Assembly: GCF_009730915.1 (NCBI RefSeq)
Contig: NC_052481.1
Coordinates: 186,001-250,000, forward strand
DNA length: 64,000 bases
Origin: Dioscorea cayenensis subsp. rotundata
Taxonomy: Eukaryota > Streptophyta > Magnoliopsida > Dioscoreales > Dioscoreaceae
Reading direction: 5' to 3'
Shown: in pieces, positions 24,390 to 54,700 of the stretch
Position numbering within the stretch: the stretch's first letter is position 1
How the letters are laid out: the number at the start of each line of letters is the position of its first letter
Position numbers and translations under genes: made by a program
The notes under the pieces: generated by a model
Databases searched by the model: none
What the model was told of the DNA's origin: nothing
Seen by the model: the letters and a program-made list of their open reading frames with translations, nothing else

Positions 24390-27300
24390 ACCTGACTGAC
24401 TGATGAACTAAAACTGATAGATGAACTTTATTACACTGTTATTTCAGTTATTTCAGAACAAGTGTGGGCTTTCAAAAAGTACCCTTGGATTAACATTTCC
24501 AACCTCTACACTCACATCACCCTGGATCAGATTTACCATAAATCAGACGAGATCCTCAAGAACATCCAGTAGTCATTGGGTTATACCCCATCTGTTTGAG
24601 ATGATCATACATCACATCATCACATGCACTTCAAAAATACAATATGTGTGTGGTCTATGTGATGCATAAACAACATAAAGGTAGCCCCTCGCATCACAAA
24701 AGAACCTTAAATCTTTCAAAAAGTGTTGGTTGCAAATTTGGCGCCATGATATCAAACGAATAACTAGTACAACAACAATATCTATGGCTTGACCGAAATT
24801 GAGAAAGCATACCGTGTTTAATAGCTCATGGTTTCCTCCCCTACACAATACTGCTCCGAAGACAAATGTCTTCCATCTATTATCCTTCCCCATCCGTAGA
24901 TAGTTTACCTTATTATCATTTTTAACATGCGGGGCTGGATGCAAGAGAAGAACCTGACCATAAAGTCTAACAACATGACCAAGGAATAGGTTTAGGAGAA
25001 TTATCCTTTGCCTTTGACAATGACCTCTACCTCCGATCCCACGAAAGTTGACTATCTTTGATATAAATATCCATCCAAAAGCATAGCCACAATAAAAAGA
25101 TTGATTAAGATCACAAAAACAACCTAGTGGGATAATGTGTTTGCGAATGGGTACGGCTAAACTAGTTGAGGACAAGTATAATTTGGCAAAGAGCAAGGCA
25201 CTCTCGCCACCAGTTAATAGAGCTCCACTGTCATCACTTCAACAGGCTGACTGACTGACTAACCGACAGACTGATGAAGGACGGACTGATGAACTGCATT
25301 CCACGGTTATTCTAGAACAATTGTAGCCTTTCAAAAAGTCTACGTTGGATTAACATTTTCAACCTTTGCACTCACATCACCCTAGATCAGATGTACCATC
25401 AAATCGGGCGAGATCCTTAAGATCATCCATGTAGTCGTAGGGTTCATATTCCATATGTTTGAGATTATCATACATTACATACACTTCAAAAATACAATAT
25501 GTGTGTGGTGTATGTGAAGCACAAACAACATTAAGGTAACCACTCGCATCATAGAATAACCTCAAATCTTTCAAAAGTGTTGGCTATAAATTTTCCGTCA
25601 TGACATTAAATGAGTAACCAGAAAAGCGATAATATGTATGGTTTAAACGAAACTGAAAAAGCGTGCTCAATAGCATAGAAGTACCCATCAAATACTATTA
25701 GGTCATAAGGGTGGCTTCCTCCCCCCACATAAAAGGGCTCCTCTGAAGACAAATGTCTTCCATCTATTATCCTTCCCCATCCGTAGATAGTTTACCTTAT
25801 TATCATTTTTAACATGCGGGGCTGGATGCAAGAGAAGAACCTGACCATAAAGTCTAACAACATGACCAAGGAATAGGTTTAGGAGAATTATCCTTTGCCT
25901 TTGACAATGACCTCTACCTCCGGTCCCACGAAAGTTGACTATCTTTGATATAAATATCCATCCAAAAGCATAGCCACAATAAAAAGATTGATTAAGATCA
26001 CAAAAAAACAACCTAGTGGGATAATGTGTTTGCGAATGGGATGCACGGCTAAACTAGTTGAGGACAAGTATAATTTGGCAAAAGAGCAAGGCACTCTCGC
26101 CACCAGTTAATAGAGCTCCACTGTCATCACTTCAACAGGCTGACTGACTGACTAACCGACAGACTGATGAAGGACGGACTGATGAACTGCATTCCACGGT
26201 TATTCTAGAACAATTGTAGCCTTTCAAAAAGTCTACGTTGGATTAACATTTTCAACCTTTGCACTCACATCACCCTAGATCAGATGTACCATCAAATCGG
26301 GCGAGATCCTTAAGATCATCCATGTAGTCGTAGGGTTCATATTCCATATGTTTGAGATTATCATACATTACATACACTTCAAAAAAATACAATATGTGTG
26401 TGGTGTATGTGAAGCACAAACAACATTAAGGTAACCACTCGCATCATAGAATAACCTCAAATCTTTCAAAAGTGTTGGCTATAAATTTTCCGTCATGACA
26501 TTAAATGAGTAACCAGAAAAGCGATAATATGTATGGTTTAAACGAAACTGAAAAAGCGTGCTCAATAGCATAGAAGTACCCATCAAATACTATTAGGTCA
26601 TAAGGGTGGCTTCCTCCCCCCACATAAAAGGGCTCCTCTGAAGACAAATGTCTTCCATCTATTATCCTTCCCCATCCGTAGATAGTTTACCTTATTATCA
26701 TTTTTAACATGCGGGGCTGGATGCAAGAGAAGAACCTGACCATAAAGTCTAACAACATGACCAAGGAATAGGTTTAGGAGAATTATCCTTTGCCTTTGAC
26801 AATGACCTCTACCTCCGGTCCCACGAAAGTTGACTATCTTTGATATAAATATCCATCCAAAAGCATAGCCACAATAAAAAGATTGATTAAGATCACAAAA
26901 ACAACCTAGTGGGATAATGTGTTTGCGAATGGGTACGGCTAAACTAGTTGAGGACAAGTATAATTTGGCAAAGAGCAAGGCACTCTCGCCACCAGTTAAT
27001 AGAGCTCCACTGTCATCACTCAACAGTCGATCGATCGACTCAACCGACTGCATCGATGAAGGACGGACTGATGAACTGCATTCCACGGTTATTCTAGAAC
27101 AATTGTAGCCTTTCAAAAAGTCTACGTTGGATTAACATTTTTCAACCTTTGCACTCACATCACCCCTAGATCGATGTACCATCAAATCGGGCGAGATCCT
27201 TAAGATCATCCATGTAGTCGTAGGGTTCATATTCCATATGTTTGAGATTATCATACATTACATACACTTCAAAAATACAATATGTGTGTGGTGTATGTGA

Positions 27301-30300
27301 AGCACAAACAACATTAAGGTAACCACTGCGATCATAGAATAACCTCAAATCTTTCAAAAAGTGTTGGCTATAAATTTTTCCATCATGACATTAAATGAGT
27401 AACCAGAAAAGCGATAATATGTATGGTTTAAACGAAACTGAAAAAGCGTGCTCAATAGCATAGAAGTACCCATCAAATACTATTAGGTCATAAGGGTGGC
27501 TTCCTCCCCCCACATAAAAGGGCTCCTCTGAAGACAAATGTCTTCCATCTATTATCCTTCCCCATCCGTAGATAGTTTACCTTATTATCATTTTTAACAT
27601 GCGGGGCTGGATGCAAGAGAAGAACCTGACCATAAAGTCTAACAACATGACCAAGGAATAGGTTTAGGAGAATTATCCTTTGCCTTTGACAATGACCTCT
27701 ACCTCCGGTCCCACGAAAGTTGACTATCTTTGATATAAATATCCATCCAAAAGCATAGCCACAATAAAAAGATTGATTAAGATCACAAAAACAACCTAGT
27801 GGGATAATGTGTTTGCGAATGGGTACGGCTAAACTAGTTGAGGACAAGTATAATTTGGCAAAGAGCAAGGCACTCTCGCCACCAGTTAATAGAGCTCCAC
27901 TGTCATCACTTCAACAGGCTGACTGACTGACTAACCGACAGACTGATGAAGGACGGACTGATGAACTGCATTCCACGGTTATTCTAGAACAATTGTAGCC
28001 TTTCAAAAAGTCTACGTTGGATTAACATTTTCAACCTTTGCACTCACATCACCCTAGATCAGATGTACCATCAAATCGGGCGAGATCCTTAAGATCATCC
28101 ATGTAGTCGTAGGGTTCATATTCCATATGTTTGAGATTATCATACATTACATACACTTCAAAAATACAATATGTGTGTGGTGTATGTGAAGCACAAACAA
28201 CATTAAGGTAACCACTCGCATCATAGAATAACCTCAAATCTTTCAAAAGTGTTGGCTATAAATTTTCCGTCATGACATTAAATGAGTAACCAGAAAAGCG
28301 ATAATATGTATGGTTTAAACGAAACTGAAAAAAGCGTGCTCAATAGCATAGAAGTACCCATCAAATACTATTAGGTCATAAGGGTGGCTTCCTCCCCACA
28401 TAAAAAGGGCTCCTCCGAAGACAAATGTCTTCCATCTATTATCCTTCCCCATCCGTAGATAGTTTACCTTATTATCATTTTTTTAACATGCGAGATCGGA
28501 TGCAAGAGAAGAACCCCGACCATAAAGTCTAACAACATGACCAAGGAATAGGTTTAGGAGAATTATCCTTTGCCTTCGACAATGACCCTCTACCTCCCGG
28601 TCCCACGTAAAGTTGACTATCTTTGATATAAATATCCATCCAAAAAGCATAGCCACAATAAAAAGATTGATTAAGATCACAAAAACAACCTAGTGGGATA
28701 ATGTGTTTCGCGAATGGGTACGGCTAAACTAGTCGAGGACAAGTATAATTTGGCAAAAGAGCAAGGCACTCTCGCCACCGGCTCATAGAGCTCCACCGTC
28801 ATCACTTCAACAGTCGATCGATCGACTCAACCGATGGATCGATGAAGGACGGATCGATGAACCGCATTCCACGTGCTATTCTAGAACAATTGCAGCCTTT
28901 CAAAAAGTCTACGCTGGATTAACATTTTCAACCTCTGACTCACATCACCCTAGATCAGATGTACCATCAAATCGGGCGAGATCCTTAAGATCATCCATGT
29001 AGTCGTAGGGTTCATATTCCATATGTTTGAGATTATCATACATTACATACACTTCAAAAAAATACAATATGTGTGTGGTGTATGTGAAGCACAAACAACA
29101 TTAAGGTAACCACTCGCGATCATAGAATAACCTCAAATCTTTCAAAAGTGTTGTTATAAATTTTCCGTCATGACATTAAATGAGTAAACTGTAAAAGCGT
29201 ATAATATGTATGGTTTAAACGAAACTGAAAAAGCGTGCTCAATAGCATAGAAGTACCCATCAAATACTATTAGGTCATAAGGGTGGCTTCCTCCCCCCAC
29301 ATAAAAGGGCTCCTCTGAAGACAAATGTCTTCCATCTATTATCCTTCCCCATCCGTAGATAGTTTACCTTATTATCATTTTTAACATGCGGGGCTGGATG
29401 CAAGAGAAGAACCTGACCATAAAGTCTAACAACATGACCAAGGAATAGGTTTAGGAGAATTATCCTTTGCCTTTGACAATGACCTCTACCTCCGGTCCCA
29501 CGAAAGTTGACTATCTTTGATATAAATATCCATCCAAAAGCATAGCCACAATAAAAAGATTGATTAAGATCACAAAAACAACCTAGTGGGATAATGTGTT
29601 TGCGAATGGGTACGGCTAAACTAGTTGAGGACAAGTATAATTTGGCAAAGAGCAAGGCACTCGCCACCGCTAATAGAGCTCCACCGTCATCACTCAACAG
29701 TCGATCGATCGACTAACCCACGAGATCGATGAAGGACTGGATCGATGAACCGCATTCCACGGTTATTCTAGAACAATTGTAGCCTTTCGAAAAAGTCTAC
29801 GTTGGATTAACATTTTCAACCTTTGCACTCACATCACCCCTAGATCGGATGTACCATCAAATCAAAGCGAGATCCTTAAGATCATCCATGTAGTCGTAGG
29901 GGTTCATATTCCATATGTTTGAGATTATCATACATTACATACACTTCAAAAATACATATATGTGTGTGGTGTATGTGAAGCACAAACAACATTAAGGTAA
30001 CCACTCGCATCATAGAATAACCTCAAATCTTTCAAAAAGTGTTGGCTATAAATTTTCCGTCATGACATTAAATGAGTAACCGTAAAAAGCGATAATATGT
30101 ATGGTTTAAACGAACCGAAAAAGCGTGCTCAATAGCATAGAAGTACCCATCAAATACTATTAGGTCATAAGGGTGGCTTCCTCCCCCCACATAAAAGGGC
30201 TCCTCTCGAAGACAAATGTCTTCCATCTATTATCCTTCCCCATCCGTAGATAGTTTACCTTATTATCATTTTTTAACATGCGAGTGGATGCAAGAGAAGA

Positions 30301-36789: not shown

Positions 36790-37943
36790 TTAATCCAAAG
36801 CATTAGGCCCATAACAATAATTAAGCTCCGGGTGCCAAACCCACTGCACCAAGAACCTCCTTCCTCCAACTCCATTCAAATTATACGCTGCGCCGTCGCG
36901 CTCATCGACGGTGAGTTGCCCGGTGTACGAGCCGCCGCCGCCGGTGCCGTAGATGCCCTCACAGAGATCCGCAATCTCCGTCGGAAAACAAGGGTCCGCC
37001 CCGGCGTACCAAGCGTTGACGAGTGGATTCGATGCCAACTCCGCCACCTCGTGCGCGATAACGCTCACCATCGCATCCACTCCCACCTCCCCGTTCGGTG
37101 GCGCTCCGGCACGTGGTCCGCCGTAGCCTTCCGGCACAGCAAATGGCCACGAGCACACGCCGGGGCATTGCCGCTCTGCGTTCCCAACCCACGCGTAGGG
37201 TAGCGTGTATCCCACGATCGATGGGAATGTGAAGTAGTGGAATCCGCAAACCTGGTGAAAAAAAATTAGGGTTTCAAAATTCAAAATCGTTTTTCATGGA
37301 GGAGAATTTGAAATTGAAATTTAGGGGAAAAAATTTGGAAACCTGGCCACAAAAATCCTCGACGGCGACTTCGGCGGAAGTGAGGAGGAGATAAAGCCCT
37401 CCCCTAGGGTTCACCGGCAACGGCCGAGTTTTCGCCGTGACGGCGGACCGAATGACGTGTTGAATGGAGAGGCGGGTAGAGATCGGCCATGGGAGTAATG
37501 GCGATCGTTCTTCTCGGCGCCGAGCCGGACAGTGCGGCTCACATTGTCTCCGGTCTGGTCCGTGTACATTGCCACCGTGCGCCACCATCCCTCCACTGAT
37601 GGCCAACGCACCGTCGTGTCGCCGACGGGCGAGATGGATCTTAGAAAGGCCCCTGATGATCCGCTTCTGCGCCGGAGTCCACTGGCCGTACCAGATTGGG
37701 TGGACGGTGATGTTCGCCGTCAGCACTGGCCCCCATGTGGTACCTCAGCTGCACGAACTCCGATGACCCCTCGTACTTCTTCGATTCGCCCAAACTCGAG
37801 CTAGAGTTTGAGCCGAGGTGCGGCCATGGCCGCCAAGCTTTGGCCGGAGTGACCATAGATAGATAACAGAGGATTAGAAGGAGGAGAAGCGACGGTGAGG
37901 TCACTGGCAACGCCGGGCAGACGCCGGCACTAGCTCCGGCCAT
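36790..37943 (-). CDS. EXL: EXORDIUM-like secreted protein (phosphate-induced protein 1 family), with three frame breaks
   Basis: EXORDIUM-like proteins are secreted to the apoplast and linked to brassinosteroid- and carbon-dependent growth. The ATG at 37943 is followed by a signal peptide ([18 protein letters not shown]). Family landmarks are [38 protein letters not shown] [61 protein letters not shown] and the end [11 protein letters not shown] (TAA at 36790). A 91-bp intron at 37252-37342 splits DFCGQ from VCGFHYF. Exon 1 shifts frame three times: an extra base near 37735, an extra base near 37648, and a missing base near 37476. The net correction is 600 nt, exactly phase 0, so the intact protein would have 353 residues. 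Consensus error is likelier than a pseudogene. Confidence 0.9.
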
Positions 37944-37980
37944 GCTTGGACGGTGACGAAGATGAGACTTCGTTCGAGAA

Positions 37981-37990
37981 GGTATATAAA
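37981..37990 (-). promoter_or_regulatory. TATA-like element of the EXORDIUM-like gene
   Basis: On the minus strand CTTTATATACC lies 38-47 nt upstream of the ATG at 37943, implying a very short leader if used. The assignment rests on position and motif only. Confidence 0.4.
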
Positions 37991-40235
37991 GAAAGAGAGA
38001 GTGAAGAGGTGAAGGTTTTGGGTTTCGGGGCCGAGAATTTTCTCCATTTTTTCAAAATAATAATTATTTTTTAAAAAAAATTTGAAGATAAGCAGCGCGT
38101 CATTGAATGTTATCGAGATTAGGAATATCCTGTCTGGTGAAAAATGGACGGTGGATAGTGATCTTGCATTGTGTTTGGTGTTTGATCTTTTGTATTGAGA
38201 ATGAGATGAGTGTGGGTAATGGAAGACAGGCAGGCTACTTAATGTCCAGCTGTCAACTGGGCCCACCTTCTGTAGCATCCAAAAGGGCCCTGTGTTGTCC
38301 CGTTTCGGCTTTTGCTTTTGGTACCATTTTGATCAGAAAACAGTAAATATTATTATTATTATTATTATTTTCTTGTCTTTAAATGATATTTTGTTTGAAC
38401 TAAACATTTTTAATAAATTGAAAATGGAAATAATTAAGTATTTGAAAAAAAATATTTTTGAATTTTTTTTTTTGAAAAATACTAGCCTTGGTACTAAGCC
38501 CGATCCCACAGGCCCGTCAAGTGAAACAGTGATTTAATTCCGTCCGACTGGTTTAGGGATCGACACGTGTGACATAGGAGTGGGTCCCGCATCGTGTATT
38601 GTTGATGCTGACGGGGGGCAGGGGCAGGGAGGGCGGCAAGGGAATGTACCAAAGTGGGGGGCATCAATTGATTCGGGTGGTGGGCCCTACGTTCGGGACG
38701 AGATCTACGGACGATATTACGGCGTTGGCATTGAAGATGATGGATCGGACGGTCCTCATCTGTTAGGACGGCAGGGTTTCGCTGTTAAGAACCCGCCCGA
38801 GGGCTCTGTCCCACCTCAGTCATTGTGTTTCTTTGTTCGTTGATGCTTGAAGTTACTTTATTGCCCTTTGTCGTTTGAACTCCGGAAACGACAAAAAGAA
38901 ACCCTATTGTGTTTTTTACATTTTAACCCTTTAAATTTCAAAACCTCATACATTTTGAGGATGGATTTAGATTATATTCTGTTGTGTGTGAATCACTTTA
39001 ACCTCTATTTATTTATTTAAACATCATACTATACAATTTTCTTTTTTTGAAAGTTTATTTAATTAATTTAAAAAAACAACTACATAAACAACTACTTCAT
39101 GAAAAATTTACAGTAGAAACAAACTACTTGTAGATTATCACAATAAAGATGATAATATTAAGGGGTATATCACATTATCCACTAGTAATAAGAATGATTG
39201 TTCTAAATTAATATTTTACTTAAGATAATTAATGGCGGTTAAAAAACTATTATAAGGTGGACCATTCATTTTCAATATCACTAGATCAGCTAAAAGGTTA
39301 GCTATTTTAATTAAATTTAGTGTGGTTAATTTGACAGGAAACAACAGTAAATGAGTTAATAAAATAAAAAATATACTTGAATATTAGTACAAAAATCATT
39401 TTGGTACAGTTGGGAGTTTATGAAAAAGCAATTAAATTTAAATATATTTATTAAGTAAAAACTTACAATTTCTTTTTCAATATCAATCAGTATAATATCC
39501 TCAGTTGAAATCATTAATATAAAAATAAAAAATAATAGTCAGCATAATAGTTTGAGAAAGGGAATGTGAGGAGGATTGGGGAACATGGTCCATGGTTTTG
39601 GTTTGGGTGGGGCACAGGGGGGACTCAATCACGGTGCAAGTTGACGAGGGGCCCATGGGCCTTGGATCAATGATTCAATCAAAGTGCTTTTGTTCTGGTC
39701 TTTCATGGACTGACTTAGGGCCCCACCACCATGCTCTTTTAACCTTTTTCAACAATGTTACTAGCTAGTGTGAATTTTATTCCTTATTTGGTCACATTTT
39801 CAAGTGCTTTTTTTCTTTTTTGTTTAAAGCCAATTTTGCCATTCAGATATTTTTTTGTAGGATGAATGAAGTTTAATTTTAGTGTATGAAATAATTTTTT
39901 TTTTTGACAAATTGGTGATAAGTACTTTTTAATTTTTTATGCATCTTGTTTGAAAGGTTTAGAACAAGCTTTTTTTATGTTATATTGTTCATTTAATTTA
40001 AAAATATGTTATTTATTTTTAAATAAAAAAATCAATTTGAATATTTTTATTTTGGAGTGTAATTTTTAAAAATGTTATTTAAGTGTTAATAAATATGGTG
40101 AGCAAGCTACCTCCTGGTATTTACATTAAGAAAGCACTTCAAGTGAATATATTTGAAAAAAAAAAATCTATAAATTTCATTAATTAATTTAATAAATACT
40201 ATCGAATATTAAACTCTTGGCGTTTGGTAATTAGA

Positions 40236-43188: not shown

Positions 43189-46100
43189 ATGGCCTTCTCG
43201 ACGTCCTTCACCGCCGCCCAATCCCTCGCTGGCCGGGCAATCGTAGCGCCGGCGCCGGCACATCCACTACCACCTCTAACCGCCTTGCCGTCCCCTCTTT
43301 CTTGAGCTTCAACTCCCTCAAGACCTCCGCTCGCCAGCATCTACAGCATCGCGTGGCTCGTTCTCATCGCGTAGGGCTTGTAAGGTCGGCGGCTGTGGAG
43401 GCTCTGGAGGGGACGGCGGGGACTGCTCCGGTGGCTTTGGTTGAGAAATCAATTAACACTATCCGGTTTCTGGCGATTGATGCGGTGGAGAAGGCTAACT
43501 CAGGGCACCCGGGACTTCCGATGGGTTGTGCGCCCATGGGGCATATCTCTATGATGAGGTTATGAGGTATAATCCTAAGAATCCCTACTGGTTCAATCGA
43601 GATAGGTTCGTGCTGTCTGCTGGCCATGGGTGCATGCTCCAGTACGCTCTGCTTCACCTCGCTGGGTACGATAGCGTCAAGGTGAGATTCTCTTTCTCTT
43701 TGGTTTTATCATTTTTGTTGTTTTAATTGATTGATGATCAAGAAAGTTGGGAGTTTGATGGTGAAATTCATGGTACTGTGTTTTTATCTGTTTTGGGTGA
43801 TAGATCTTCTTGGTTTTTTGGGATTGTATTCTGGATGGGTGTATAGACCATGGTTTTGTTTGTTGTTTTATGTAAAAAGCTTCGTCTTTTTTTAGTTATC
43901 TCTTTTCCTTTATCTTGAGAATATAAAAACCGGTATGCTTCTCTCTGTCTTTTTACCTAACTGAAAAAGGAAAAATCTATATATATATATATTTCAATCT
44001 TTTTCTTTGCATGGTCTTTTTTTTCTCCTGAAGTTTGGATCTTGAGTATAATTTGGGGAAAAAGATCAGATAGAAGCTTATATCTGCTAAAAAGTTAATA
44101 TCTTTGAGTTTGTTTTTTTGCATCTTAGTGTTCTTTCTAACTTTTGTCATGGATGGTGCTTTTTCATTTGTTTATCCTTATTGTGATAGAAAAAAATAGT
44201 TCTAGTTGGATGTCCTTATCTTCTAAAAGACTAAGCATTTTAGCTGATTCTTGGACTTTAGAATTTATATTTTTGAAGTCAAGAATCTAGTGGTGCTCTT
44301 CATTTTTTATCCTTATACTCTCTCAATGTTGATGTTTGATAGGAGGATGATTTTGAAAAGTCTTTCAGGCAATGGGGAAGTAGAACTCCGGGCCATCCAG
44401 AGAACTTTGAGACACCAGGAATTGAAGTCACTACTGGTTTGTGTCCTACATAATCTTGGATTTGAATTGTGTAGTGTTTAGGGTGTAGATTGGATTGGAA
44501 TTATGTATACCAAATACATCTTTTTCCCTCTCACTATTTGAAGTAGTTCTAGTTGCTTATATCAATTGTTGATTTTGGATGTGCAACAGGTCCTCTTGGA
44601 CAAGGTATTGCAATGCTGTTGGGTTGGCACTTGCTGAGAAGCACCTATCTGCACGCTTTAACAAGCCTGATAGTGAGATTGTTGACCATTACACGTAAGC
44701 GAAAGTTATCTACTCCCTAAGAGTAATATCTTATATATTCAAAACTAAGGCCATCTGATAATTTGAACTTATTCATGGCTTTAGATATGCGATTCTTGGG
44801 GATGGCTGTCAAATGGAAGGGGTTTCCAATGAAGCTTGTTCTCTTGCTGGGCATTGGGGTCTTGGAAAACTGATTGCGTTCTATGATGATAATCATATAT
44901 CCATTGATGGAGACACAGAGATTGCTTTTACTGAAGATGTCATCACTCGGTTTGAGGCTCTTGGGTGGCACACGATCTGGGTGAAAAATGGTAACCATGG
45001 CTATGATGAGATTCGTGCTGCGATCAAGGAAGCAAAGGCTGTCAAAGATAGACCTACATTAATCAAGGTCACTGACTTGTGCCTTGCCACAGATTCTCAA
45101 GGTTGTGTGATATGTTATTAACTTATTTCCATATTACATACAGGTAACTACCACTATTGGATTTGGATCACCAAACAAGGCAAACTCCTATAGTGTGCAT
45201 GGTAGTGCTTTTGGGTGCTAAGGGAGGTTGATGCAACCAGGCAGAACCTCACATGGCCTTTTGAGCCTTTCCATGTGCCCGAAGATGTAAAAAGGTTTCA
45301 TGAACCTCACATTTTTCATTTGTTTTCCATTGATCTTTATGTGGATTCCATATTAATTGGAATTCTTCCTTCTCAGTCATTGAGCCGACATATCTCGGAA
45401 GGTGCATCGCTTGAGGCTGACTGGAATTCTAAGTTTGCAGAATATGAGAAGAAGTATCCTGGAGGAAGCTGCAGAGCTGAAGAGAATCATGTCAGGAGAA
45501 CTGCCTGCTGGATGGGAGAAGGCTCTGCCAGTCAGTATTTTTATTTTTATTATTTCTTTAAATGTGTTATCTTAAACTCTGGGGTAGAAATATCACGACA
45601 GTTATGAAATTTTCCTCTGGATGTTCTCTGCAGCATACACTACTGAAAGTCCTGCAGATGCTACTAGAAATCTATCACAGCAGTGCCTGAATGCACTCTG
45701 CAAAAGTTCTTCCTGGTTTTCCTCGGGAAGTGCTGATCTTGCATCGTCTAACATGACATTGCTAAAAGACATTTGGTGACTTCCAGAGTACCACACGGAA
45801 GAGCGCGAACCTCCCGATTTGGTGTTCGAGAACATGGTATGGGTGCCATTTGCAATGGCATTGTTTCCTCATAGTCCCGGTCTCATACCCTACTGTGCCA
45901 CTTTTTTGTCTTCACGGACTACATGAGGGTTTCGCCATTAGAATCTCAGCATTGTCCCGAAGGTGGTGTGATCTATGTGATGACTCACGATTCCCATCGG
46001 CTCAGGGAGAAGATGGACCCACTCATCAGCCTGATTGAGCATTTGATTGAGCTTCCGAGCAATGCCTAACATTCTCATGCTCCGGCCCGCTTGATGGGAA

Positions 46101-47787: not shown

Positions 47788-48787
47788 NNNNNNNNNNNNN
47801 NNNNNNNNNNNNNNNNNNNNNNNNNNNNNNNNNNNNNNNNNNNNNNNNNNNNNNNNNNNNNNNNNNNNNNNNNNNNNNNNNNNNNNNNNNNNNNNNNNNN
47901 NNNNNNNNNNNNNNNNNNNNNNNNNNNNNNNNNNNNNNNNNNNNNNNNNNNNNNNNNNNNNNNNNNNNNNNNNNNNNNNNNNNNNNNNNNNNNNNNNNNN
48001 NNNNNNNNNNNNNNNNNNNNNNNNNNNNNNNNNNNNNNNNNNNNNNNNNNNNNNNNNNNNNNNNNNNNNNNNNNNNNNNNNNNNNNNNNNNNNNNNNNNN
48101 NNNNNNNNNNNNNNNNNNNNNNNNNNNNNNNNNNNNNNNNNNNNNNNNNNNNNNNNNNNNNNNNNNNNNNNNNNNNNNNNNNNNNNNNNNNNNNNNNNNN
48201 NNNNNNNNNNNNNNNNNNNNNNNNNNNNNNNNNNNNNNNNNNNNNNNNNNNNNNNNNNNNNNNNNNNNNNNNNNNNNNNNNNNNNNNNNNNNNNNNNNNN
48301 NNNNNNNNNNNNNNNNNNNNNNNNNNNNNNNNNNNNNNNNNNNNNNNNNNNNNNNNNNNNNNNNNNNNNNNNNNNNNNNNNNNNNNNNNNNNNNNNNNNN
48401 NNNNNNNNNNNNNNNNNNNNNNNNNNNNNNNNNNNNNNNNNNNNNNNNNNNNNNNNNNNNNNNNNNNNNNNNNNNNNNNNNNNNNNNNNNNNNNNNNNNN
48501 NNNNNNNNNNNNNNNNNNNNNNNNNNNNNNNNNNNNNNNNNNNNNNNNNNNNNNNNNNNNNNNNNNNNNNNNNNNNNNNNNNNNNNNNNNNNNNNNNNNN
48601 NNNNNNNNNNNNNNNNNNNNNNNNNNNNNNNNNNNNNNNNNNNNNNNNNNNNNNNNNNNNNNNNNNNNNNNNNNNNNNNNNNNNNNNNNNNNNNNNNNNN
48701 NNNNNNNNNNNNNNNNNNNNNNNNNNNNNNNNNNNNNNNNNNNNNNNNNNNNNNNNNNNNNNNNNNNNNNNNNNNNNNNNNNNNNNN
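47788..48787. other. Assembly gap of exactly 1,000 N
   Basis: One thousand consecutive N. The round length indicates a scaffolding placeholder, so true distance, and possibly orientation, of the two flanking contigs is not established by sequence. Confidence 0.99.
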
Positions 48788-51700
48788 GCTCGATCCAACC
48801 TGAAACTTAAGCTTTTTTAGGATCCATACTTTCACATTCATATCCACATTTAGCATCTTGACCAATACGGAACAATCAGTTACTCAGATATTGTTCCTTA
48901 TGTTTGGCTCCATGTTTTTTTAGAAAAAAATGGGAACATAAGATGATAAACTTTAGATATCTTGGTAGATTGATATCTCTTGAAGTTATTTGCATCTTAA
49001 AAGACTGCAGTTCTGTTCTGTCCTGTCAAATTTAGACAACTGGGTTCTCTGTCCAATGCTGGGATGAGTATACTGTTGACCCAATATCAGGTTACATTGA
49101 TCAGCATTAACTGTGAACCACCAGATACACCTGATGAGGCTGGTTCTGAGATACAAGGTGGTGTTTGGTTGAAGGTGAAACTACAACCTCCAACCAAACA
49201 CTCAACGGTAACCTAGGTTGGCAAATAAATTTTTTTTTACAAGATTTAAATAAATAAAAATAAGAAATTGCTTAATTGGTATTAAAAAATAATTATATTA
49301 ATGGGTACCCATCATTAATTTGATATAAATATAATTTTAAACTTAAAATGTTTGTGTTGGTAGTATCAAATCAAAGTTTGGAATGATTTTTTCCAAACAA
49401 CCAAACCTGAAGCCCAGTTTAACCCAGCTTGTCATACCCCTGACCAAACAAAACTTGAAAAATAAGCTAATTGGCTGTCTGCTATATACATACGCCCAAA
49501 TTTTGGCTATTTCATCATGCTTTCTATTTTAGCAGCAGTTCAGACAAAAATTCTGTGAAGGCTCCAGTAGGGTCCTTTTCTGACTTCCTTGAACTAGGAT
49601 ATGGACGCTGAAAGGAAGGGAACAGATTCTGTTATAGTAATTCTAGGATTTTGTCAGTTTCTAACCTTACGATCATTACTTAGCTATGCAGATTATTTCT
49701 AGAAATTTAGAGCTCTTACAAAACAAGCATGATTTTCTTCTTATATTTCATTGTCGGAGACGATTTTAATTTACTTTTCTTTCACAATTTTCTGCAGATA
49801 TGTAATCTGTAATGCTTGCAAGAAAGACATTTGTTACAAACAGAAGGGCACCGATTTTTTTTATGGTTTACGTTCTGGACAACATTCTCATCTCCATTGG
49901 TCTGACACAACAAGGTGCTTGGCAAATTTTTTTTTTCCTAGAGTACATTGCATTCATCTGTCAAATTATTTGTTTTACAATATTTCGAAGGTTGTTATTG
50001 CATTTGATATTGAACTATCATCTGCATTTAATTAGATTGTGAAGTCAAAACTACATAGATGGCAATTTGTGTGCTGCTGTTGGAGTGTGGTGAAAATGTA
50101 TATTCAATGGGGCTTGGAAGTCAAAATTTTGCTTAGGTATGTCTTTTTAGAAACATGTGGCATGGGATGCCATTAATTTCTTATTTACAATACTTATCAA
50201 AATCCTTAACAGGAAGAGGATCCTTTGGAACAATGACTTAAAACTAAAGTACGTACCCAAGTCATACTATGCTCACAATTTAATCTAAAAATATAATAAG
50301 TGAAAAGATTTATCCTTTTAGTTGCACAATCTCATCAAATGAGTGAAATGCAACAGATTTTAGTAGTGGCTTCACTTCGTCTTTTGTGAGCAAGAAAAGA
50401 GTGAAGAACCCTCAACTAGGAATTTGTCGAGATTTTTCTGTTCAAACTTTTGCATGGATCTTATGATTTGAGATCACTTCAATTTCAGCCTTTCTAACAT
50501 CCTCTCTCCATAGAGATCACTCTTCTGAAATGAGTTTTTTTTCATGCGTAGAATCTTATTGGAATCATTCATATGAAAGAAAATTTTACTAACATTGAGT
50601 TTGACATTTCCTATTATGTGATCAAGACCAAGTAATGACCTATAGAAATTAGGATTTTAACGAAAATGAAAAACAATCTCATTAACATTGAAGACTCTAT
50701 ACAAACAAAATCTAGCTTTTAAGGATTCATGAAGTATCGAATTTTTAAATGTGAGTTGACTTTTTTTTTAGTATACACTTGTTATGTTTATTATTGAGCT
50801 AGCTTTACTATTGTTCTCTAACCACCTTGAAGTAGTTTGCGACCCTCTGTTTTGCCTTTGGCCTTGTAAATAGAATGTGATGTTGAAAAGAATCAATCTT
50901 GAGAAGAGCTGATTCCCCATATTTAACAGAACTTTTCATGCTATATGTTTCTATTGTATAGTAAACGAGGGAATATAATGCAATGAGCTGACCAACTGTC
51001 TGCTGAGTGATACACCCACACAAATCATATCGTTATTATCCTGATATTTAGCTGGCCTTTTAAAGGCTACAAAATTTCCGATGTAGTCAAACTGCGAAAG
51101 ATTGGAAAAATTAACCATTGCTCTGCTCAAGTATAAGATGATAACATGATATTTTAGAAGAAGATTCAATTGCACTAGGAAAAAAAAATCGATAACACAC
51201 TATTACTAGAGGATGATGTGGTTCTAGTTGATGGGAATCTGAAGGGTTAATAGGAGATTATTAATAAATGTCTGAGCAAGACTAACGGAAAATAGTGTGT
51301 GGCATGAAGTCAAAAAGAGGCTGTACAATAGAGATGAGTATAAAAGGCACCATTTTCTTGTCCATAATTTTTTTCCAGAGAATTTGTATAGCCAGCCGTA
51401 TGCATGTTTGGTTCCTTCATTGCTGACAGCTGGGCAAATCAAGATGTAACTACCTCTGGATATATCCAGGGGCCACATCTATTGTAGCCAGACTGGACCA
51501 AACTAATATCAGAAGACCATAAATACCACAAATACCACATTAGAATTTCCTTAAAGGGTGACCTGATGAAAAATGAATACAAAAGAAGGAAGTGATATGA
51601 AAGAATTCAACGGAAACAAGCTTGAGAATGGTGGTTTGATATGGATATGCCTGATCATCCAAACTGTGTAGATGCTGCAATTCTTTCAACTGATACTAAA

Positions 51701-54700
51701 TTTTATTTCTTAGGGTTAATTTTTCAGTTAGTCACCCAACTATAACTAATTATCACTTCGGTCACCCAACTTCAAAATGTATCAAAACAGTCACCCAACT
51801 AATAATGTCTTTCACTGGTCAGTCACCAGAGAGATTCCGGCAAATAAAATCTTGCGTGGCAGTCGGAATAGCTGAGTCAGCATTATTTAACCATGTCAGC
51901 AGTCTAACTTGGCTTGTCCACGTCAGAGAAACTTGCTGACTAGAGTTAAGAACATCCACATCATCATCTTTCTTCTTCGTTCTTCATCCTCAATTCAGAA
52001 GGAGCGAGGCGACGATGTCTTGTGCGGAATATAGCGTAGTTTTCGGTGATGGCGAAGTCGTGGAGGAAGGATGGCTCACGAACGGAGAAGATGGGAACGT
52101 CAGTGAGCTTGTTGCCGTCCTTGTCAAACCGAAAGTAGGTGACAAATGGAGGGATTGGGCCGTAAAGGAAGGCAAAGAGCTCGCTGGTGGTAGGATCTTT
52201 CTTGGGATGAGCGGTCATGCCCATGAAGAGTTCGCCGGAGAAGTCTTCACGGCCGAGAATGGAGATGTCGCCATCGGTGGTGGAAAGGTGGAGGGAGTAA
52301 GGTGTTGGAGAATGATTTGATCTGGAAATTAGCAACAGTTTCAGAGACATAAAGCTGAATACAGTGAAGCATGGGAAATGCAAAAGTTTGATCAGTCTTT
52401 ATTTTGCCTGTCTTTGGGACTAGTTAATCGATGTTTTTGTTGTTTATGTTTGATGTTTAAGTATGTCTAAATGATGCTGTATGAACTCTATATATTCTAA
52501 ATTATGTTATGGTATGAAGCATCAAGTAATTAATATCAGTGTGTTCTTCATTCACTGAAACATCTGAGTTCTTGTACCTTGTTCTTCTTCTGATATTTCT
52601 CTTGAGTGTGTTTCAGATCCTATCATAAGGGAGGTCTGACTCGCCGAGAGCATAGAGACGGCCGGCGAAGAAACTTAGACTGGTGTTAGCTAAGCCAGTT
52701 CCCTGAGTCACGCTCATTTGATCAGTGAGGAAGCTGGCGGCAGTGACGGCACCGCGCGCAACTTCGGCATAGCCGTGGAAGCCGGAGAAGACGTTTGGAA
52801 GGACGGGAGCGTAGGTGCGGACAAAGCGGGAGAAAAGAAGAGATGGCGAAGAGGAGGAGGGAGTGGAGCATGCCGTCGCCGTCGAAGAGATGGTGAGCAC
52901 TGCGAGGGAGATATTGAGGGTTGGGGGACGCTTTTGCGGATGTAGACGCCGTCAGGCGAGACAAGGTGGTATCTGGCCGTGAATGATGGGGCATGGGGTC
53001 GGGGGAGCTCTGGAGACCCGGGCGAAGTTGTCGAAAAAGGATGTTGCAGGGATCGAGCGGAGGGCTGGAGGAGAGGTGGGTCAATGAAGTTGTTTATGAT
53101 ATCATCCAAAGCGTTGCGAGTAGGTGGCGGCCGATGAGAAGGGATGTGGGACGTTCTTAACCCCTAGTCGACAAGTTTTTCTGACGTGGACAAGCCAAGT
53201 TAGATCTGCCGACATGGTTAAATAATCTTGACTCAGCTATTCAGTGCACGCAAGATTTTATTTGCGGAATCTCTACGGTGATCTGACCGGTGAAAGACAT
53301 TATTAGTTGGGTGACTGTTTTGATACATTTTGAAGTTGGGTGATCGAAGTGATAATTAGTTAAAGTTGGGTGACTAAGCGAAAAATTAACCCCTCAAAAT
53401 TTATAACACTGATAATGCATATTTAAAGTTTTGCATCATTTCCATTACCATACTAATTATTTTTTAACATAAAAGAACTTTGTCTTATTTTTTTTATTTT
53501 TTACGTTTCTAACCCTTTAATATTTGCTTTTCACATCAATATTTCCATCTATATATTACAAGTTTGTCATGTATATTAATTTTTTTGCTTTCTCGTTACT
53601 CGGCAAAATTCTGTTTCAGAGAGTTGCTTGTTTCCATTCGTTTCAATGAGCCTGGATGGCAGTGGTCAGGTAGCTTCCTTCCTGATTTCCTAGGAGATAC
53701 ACAAGTCAAAATGCTCAATTATGCCTCTGGTGCACTAAACATGGTTCGAGCTGAAGTACAGAATGCTGATTTAGCCATTCATGATAACATGACAAGGAGC
53801 TCTGATGGAAATTCCATGACACAATTAATTCTTCTATCTGATGACGAAACTGGGTTTATGCCATACAGGATAGACAATTTTTCAATGGAGGTAACTGATA
53901 TGATTTTTTCTCTTCCAAATTGTTGTTTGTTCTTTTGTTCAGGGAGGCACATTTATTCTTCTAAGTCTGTATCTTTTGTTAAGTGATCCAAACTTAAGAT
54001 TTAGATGATCACTCAGTCTAACATTCTAAAAGCTGCATGTAATATTTACCCACCACAAAAGAAGAAGAAAAAACAGGGAAAAAATGGCTTATTATTACTA
54101 TTAAGAGGAATTTAAACCTCAAGATCCACAATTCTTTGTTGTTGTTGTTGTTTTTTTTTTGGTAATTTCCTTTTCATGGGGCCATTTTTCTTATGGTAAA
54201 GATGTGTTCCATATGGTCATTCTTGCAGAGGCTGCGAATTTACCAGCAACGATGTGAAAACTTTGAAACCTCTGTGAATCCTTACACTTCTTGCCAATAT
54301 GCATGGGATGAACCTTGCTATCCTCATCGTCTTGTTGTTGAGGTTGATATTTGTTTCCTTTTCCTGCTTCCTATGTTGCATTTTTGACATAATGCCAATG
54401 GTTTCATATTATCACTTGTAGGTGCCTGGTGAGCGCATTTTGGGTACATACTGTCTTGATGATACCAGAGAATATATGCCCATTTTCCTTCCCTCAACAT
54501 CTGATGTATGTACTGGATTTATTTCATCTTGATGACATTTTTTTTTTCTGCAGTTTGATTTATTTGGGTACCATTGTTTGGTGGTAACATTGGGAAGTAT
54601 ATTTTTGGTGTGCTTGCCAAGAATTCAACTTTAAATGTACTTTATATTTAATCATCATGGGTTGTAGTATTGATTATGATGATCATGCTAAATGCGTAGT

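Follow-up and report, generated by a model that had tools for sequence, protein, structure and literature searches.

A CCD4-Carrying Pack-MULE with a Nested Solo LTR in a VPS13 Intron of Dioscorea cayenensis subsp. rotundata

A Mutator-like element carrying a piece of carotenoid cleavage dioxygenase 4 (CCD4) occupies positions 51713-53392 of the window, the 64,000-nucleotide stretch of Dioscorea cayenensis subsp. rotundata DNA analysed here. Inverted repeats of ~250 bp surround a minus-strand CCD4 piece, which is itself split by a solo long terminal repeat (LTR). The element is one of a CCD4-carrying family of eight copies genome-wide, and it is this copy that lies in an intron of a VPS13 gene. 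It is an element of a known kind, a Pack-MULE, with a trait gene as its cargo. We consider it very probable that the family arose as a Pack-MULE that took up CCD4 and a nested solo LTR, and that later spread by mobilization in trans and decayed. A sequence-only reading of the same DNA had described a Pack-MULE with terminal inverted repeats (TIRs) and a frameshifted CCD4 piece on the minus strand, placed in a VPS13 intron and antisense to that gene. This description holds, except that the “intron” it saw within CCD4 is the solo LTR.

Carotenoid colour in several crops is set by CCD4 activity. Peach flesh colour, for example, is named in connection with CCD4 in an excerpt of PMC6888377. A literature search found no paper joining CCD4 and Pack-MULE.

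Host Gene, Boundaries and Class of the Element

The host VPS13 gene is on the plus strand, so that the CCD4 piece is antisense to it. Direct reading of the splice sites places the end of one VPS13 exon at 49914 (AAG/GT) and the start of the next at 53620 (TTTCAG/A), with an intron of 3,705 bp (49915-53619, plus strand) around the element. The joined exons match Pfam VPS13_VAB across the join (E 1.8e-10), and the downstream exon has a single occurrence in the genome (1/1 candidates). At this locus, the element is probably a passive passenger that is spliced out with the intron.

Upstream, a run of ~1 kb of N (window 47788-48807) lies between a transketolase gene and the VPS13 exons. The transketolase piece, at 44762-45118, is on the same strand as VPS13 (Pfam E 5.1e-41). 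VAB and C-terminal are the only VPS13 domains recognised in the window, and for this reason the 5′ portion of the gene, which is a large one, may be missing from this assembly or wrongly assembled.

The left TIR, which starts GGGTTAATTTTT, spans 51713-51962 on the plus strand and has matches elsewhere in the plant's own genome. The right TIR (53143-53392, minus strand) ends AAAAATTAACCC. The two are 90.6% identical over 254 columns by blastn, and 228/246 columns agree in an ungapped comparison (92.7%; K2P 0.077). Between them, the window copy contains a subterminal sequence, CCD4 and the LTR. The subterminal sequence (51963-52028, plus strand) is of the MULE family and is common to the elements L014, L017, L018, L019 and L020, and it stops at the CCD4 junction. 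Neither an Rfam family nor a tRNA was detected in the window. An open frame of 126 codons at 51940-52317 on the plus strand, antisense to CCD4, has no Pfam match and is most likely a by-product of the GC-rich antisense.

Pack-MULEs are defined in an excerpt of PMC3310237 as non-autonomous elements with TIRs within 100-500 bp, target-site duplications (TSDs) of 9-11 bp, and a gene fragment. The window's own assembly (584,211,761 bases in 2,249 contigs) was searched for other copies sharing the TIR, as the sequence-only reading had suggested. The left end gave at least 40 matches (the best 40 of 177 first-look candidates). Among the TIR matches listed, many stand as inward-facing pairs, and 20 regions were extracted for comparison. 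Seven proved to be further full-length copies with CCD4 (L009, L010, L011, L012, L013, L015, and L016), which are 89.2-92.1% identical to the window element. Three of the eight copies are on small contigs of 31-80 kb, and their differing TSDs argue against duplicate assembly.

Perfect TSDs of 9-10 bp, in seven different sequences, flank 7/7 of the other CCD4 copies. For L011 and L016, a one-base shift of one edge is needed, and with a shift L015 also has a TSD of 11 bp. Twelve pairs besides the window were tested in all. Among the remaining five, the repeat of L014 is perfect (10 bp), those of L019 and L022 each contain a single mismatch, and no TSD is present at L017 or L018. The window copy, with up to two mismatches allowed, has no TSD of 8-11 bp at its TIR edges; slightly further out, an AT-rich pair agreeing at 8 of 9 positions was judged not convincing. 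Among the CCD4 copies, all eight considered, it alone lacks a TSD, which later change in the flanks or recombination between copies could explain.

A longer relative with the same TIRs, L018, carries transposase sequence: MULE (PF10551) in one piece (E 1.8e-8) along with SWIM (E 9.8e-9), and a second PF10551 match below the cut-off in another piece (E 4.3e-4). These stretches are in broken frames. L019 has SWIM only (E 5.2e-4), and no Pfam family was found in five of the ten proteins tested or in the L017 pieces.

By its TIRs of ~250 bp, the TSDs of 9-10 bp at its sister copies, and this transposase-bearing relative, the element is Mutator-like. The left edge reads TTAGGG, for which reason a hAT or PIF class was considered; it was rejected on the length of the sister-copy TSDs (9-10 bp). 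Further, the element is non-autonomous, holds an identifiable host-gene fragment, and was mobile after the capture, since there are eight copies with different TSDs in seven of them. The Pack-MULE class, earlier an inference, therefore now has observed grounds in the sister-copy TSDs, the MULE and SWIM matches of L018, and the CCD4 parent gene described below. Points that speak against the favoured explanation include the missing TSD in the window copy, L017 and L018, and the fact that L018 is broken into pieces.

The element is like the Pack-MULEs of rice, tomato, Arabidopsis, and maize with respect to TIRs, TSDs, gene fragment, non-autonomy, and presence in several copies. It differs from them in that the cargo is CCD4 and a nested solo LTR travels along. 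Pack-TYPE elements that arise when neighbouring insertions fuse, as described in an excerpt of PMC8903248, likewise hold captured DNA inside conserved ends, whereas here both junctions show short microhomology. Loci L017, L020, and L022 have the same or related TIRs with different interiors, and may hold further captured host pieces.

The CCD4 Cargo, Its Parent and the Nested LTR

The captured CCD4 sequence is on the minus strand in two parts. The first (52626-53146) corresponds to positions 242-803 of the parent coding sequence (CDS), at 83.0% identity over 572 columns, 61 of which are gap columns, while the second (52026-52302) corresponds to CDS 799-1075 at 94.6% over 277 columns. Pfam RPE65 is matched by the minus-strand piece 51967-52398 (E 3.7e-20), and weakly by 52616-52951 alone (E 0.0026; 17.3 bits, cut-off 27 bits); for the first piece, 52717-53163, Pfam gave nothing. 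By sequence, 17 solved plant dioxygenase chains were matched for one CCD piece and 1 for the other.

An RPE65 family search of the genome gave 45 matches, with 53/53 candidates scored, and 30 loci were cut out. One of these, L030 (contig C4, 2859879-2861306), has an uninterrupted frame of 610 amino acids from its first Met and matches RPE65 at E 7.8e-110. The majority sequence of the eight element copies aligns to L030 in two blocks, one of 563 columns at 87.9% and one of 277 columns at 96.8%, and for the identity of the captured piece this DNA-level match is the decisive one. The longest matches among the other non-element loci are those of L031, at 69.1% over 362 columns and 69.7% over 195. 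They are followed by L029 (68.0% over 175 columns), and the remainder extend over 45-87 columns at 72-91%. When the first CCD4 part was used as query, the 11/11 candidates scored were the eight elements, L030, and two further CCDs that match over a short length only. An intact parent is present in the genome, and the CCD4 origin and strand claimed by the sequence-only reading are upheld.

The captured pieces amount to 834 bp, approximately parent codons 81-358. At the junctions, microhomologies of 3-4 bp are common to element and parent, with GGA on the left and CATC on the right, where the CCD4 part and the right TIR overlap by a few bases. Of the 30 loci, L030 is the best match to an Arabidopsis CCD4 reference, at 62.8% over 521 columns, as compared to 48.4% over 514 columns for the next long match. 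This is a strong lead for placing L030 in the CCD4 subfamily, as judged from similarity to that one reference. The source could be a lost CCD4 paralogue instead of L030 itself. The copy nearest to the majority (97.0%), L015, also has the fewest frame breaks and lies 1.15 Mb from L030 on the same contig, a closeness that is no more than suggestive.

Between the two CCD4 parts is an interruption of 323 bp (52303-52625, plus strand), and the parent runs through the site without it. In the orientation of the window, the insert reads TGTTGGAG...CCTATCA, that is, it starts TGTTGG and has the form TG...CA. In 8/8 copies it is flanked by a 5-bp duplication, CCTTA in the CCD4 sense, which appears in the window as TAAGG at 52298-52302 on the left and 52626-52630 on the right. 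A search of the genome with the insert returned 22/22 scored candidates, consisting of the eight elements and 14 partial LTR-like matches. Ten of these partial matches fall into five pairs on the same strand, with a spacing of 4.3-4.8 kb in four pairs and 7.9 kb in the remaining one, and four are single. The members of the first four pairs have 293-295 bp in common at 92.9-99.3%, ending at the insert's end; the fifth pair (L080/L074) has shorter blocks at 92.5-96.0% and is a less clean fit. Alignment along the entire insert is seen for L078 alone (71%); with the 13 others it is restricted to the final half to three quarters of the insert (76-84%), and the insert holds ~35 bases that are not in the four LTRs aligned.

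In two of three LTR pairs inspected, 5-bp duplications (CCAGT and GAGGT) are present, and in the third they differ by one base. After the LTR in L068 and L078 is a sequence like a primer binding site (PBS), GTGGTATCAGAG, with a variant in L070. We take GTGGTATCAGAG to be the site at which copia elements are primed by tRNA-Met. From its position after the related LTRs, it follows that the LTR reads on the plus strand of the window, antisense to CCD4. Given its TG...CA ends, its 5-bp duplication and its relatives with paired LTRs, the interruption is a solo LTR. It resembles Ty1/copia-type LTR retrotransposons in the ends, the 5-bp duplications and the PBS-like sequence, but the element keeps the solo LTR only. 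We infer a copia type, to which the solo LTR and its relatives are here presumed to belong.

The other candidate for the interruption, and the one implied when the CCD4 piece was called intron-bearing, is a native CCD4 intron carried along in the capture. An excerpt of PMC5133782 gives no intron or one for most CCD4 genes, another of PMC6888377 gives one intron in the tobacco CCD4 set, and an acceptor-like TTTCCAG is found near the right edge of the insert. Its left edge, however, has no GT, and the uninterrupted parent, the TG...CA form with its duplication, and the closely similar pairs of related LTRs make a native intron scarcely credible.

Spread, Decay and Possible Regulatory Effects

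The LTR is in all eight copies and not in the parent, so the order of events appears to have been capture, then LTR insertion, then spread of the family; alternatively, a since-lost paralogue may have contained the LTR by the time it was captured. The nesting order is unusually readable in this family. Under the favoured explanation, a MULE with these ends would have acquired the 834 bp of intact CCD4 coding sequence that the alignment shows, by a route that may have been gap repair or template switching at the microhomologies. A retrotransposon, putatively of copia type, would then have inserted into the CCD4 piece and been reduced to a solo LTR. The compound element would have been mobilized in trans by a transposase-bearing relative and have spread, with its copies decaying thereafter.

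The copies differ by 3.0-6.6% from their majority (93.4-97.0% identity), and pairwise identities are 89.5-94.2%. Substitution rates in plants are 6.5e-9 to 1.3e-8 per site and year. At these uncalibrated rates, the divergence of the copies corresponds roughly to 2-10 million years. The TIR, first CCD4 part and LTR differ by 4.5-5.5% among copies, and the second CCD4 part and subterminal sequence by 2.4-2.8%. The stretch of low variation covers 1092-1431 of the family majority (window ~51963-52302). This lower variation is not predicted by simple neutral decay and is counted against the favoured explanation.

Could the copies act on CCD4? The window copy has 172 exact 21-mers in common with the parent CDS and the other seven copies have 76-212, as compared to 0 or 1 between the window copy and six other CCD loci. 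In view of the 172 shared 21-mers, silencing of CCD4 by RNA from the element would be possible in principle. That Pack-MULEs regulate the genes they copy is an old proposal. The 21-mers, shared with the only close CCD4 match found, make it testable on a visible trait.

According to one such reading, antisense transcripts, from VPS13 pre-mRNA at this locus or from a solo-LTR promoter at all eight, would pair with sense RNA of CCD4, made either at the parent gene or from the right TIR, and the resulting small RNAs would dampen CCD4. The shared 21-mers are consistent with it, as are the transcription of the host gene antisense to CCD4 and the orientation of the solo LTR, in which a TATA-like motif, CTATATATT (52488-52496, plus strand), is found in 8/8 copies as a putative promoter element. 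Against this, the motif is found in 0/4 of the full-element LTRs aligned and so gives no evidence of a kept promoter, and common descent alone accounts for the 21-mers. Moreover, CCD4 lies in the loop of the TIR hairpin, and the double-stranded RNA of the hairpin would therefore be TIR-derived; the inverted-repeat route alone would make no small RNAs from CCD4. Such RNAs would be expected if transcripts started in the solo LTR and in the right TIR and converged. Lastly, in the second CCD4 part, differences among copies at the three codon positions (18/744, 14/735 and 22/736) give no clear signal of selection or protein constraint. All told, regulation of this kind seems unlikely.

Quite unlikely, too, is a dispersed trans-silencing family, in which antisense promoters of the accidentally acquired LTR and sense promoters of the right TIR would, by convergent transcription, yield CCD4 small RNAs from all eight copies. 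Promoters within TIRs, and small RNAs that cover MULEs, are described in excerpts of PMC3310237 and PMC4858842. If true, trans-silencing would act on the single intact parent, and hence on carotenoid content. The presence of the eight copies may vary among accessions.

It is very improbable that the copies are new coding genes with MULE-derived exons, even though MULE-derived genes have been described in rice (in an excerpt of PMC4858842). The first CCD4 part has frame-breaking indels relative to the parent in 8/8 copies (1 in L015 and 4-18 in the others, with gap placement uncertain within a TCC-rich tract), in agreement with the frameshifts noted from the sequence-only reading. The majority sequence is itself already frame-broken, which makes a protein product unlikely. 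An ordinary pseudogene of CCD4 that is flanked by repeats merely by chance would share the partial gene content and the frameshifts, but it is refuted by CCD4 similarity that stops at the TIR and subterminal edges, rather than running through the TIRs into the flanks, and by eight copies with these same edges. For the Pack-MULE as a whole, the most likely present function is none.

Elsewhere in the window, 24615-29712 is a tandem array of five near-identical open-frame segments on the minus strand, among which a 15-bp motif is tandemly repeated at three sites. A GC-rich minus-strand stretch at 36793-38051 is readable in several frames, is perhaps broken, and resembles what we take to be an EXORDIUM-type gene.
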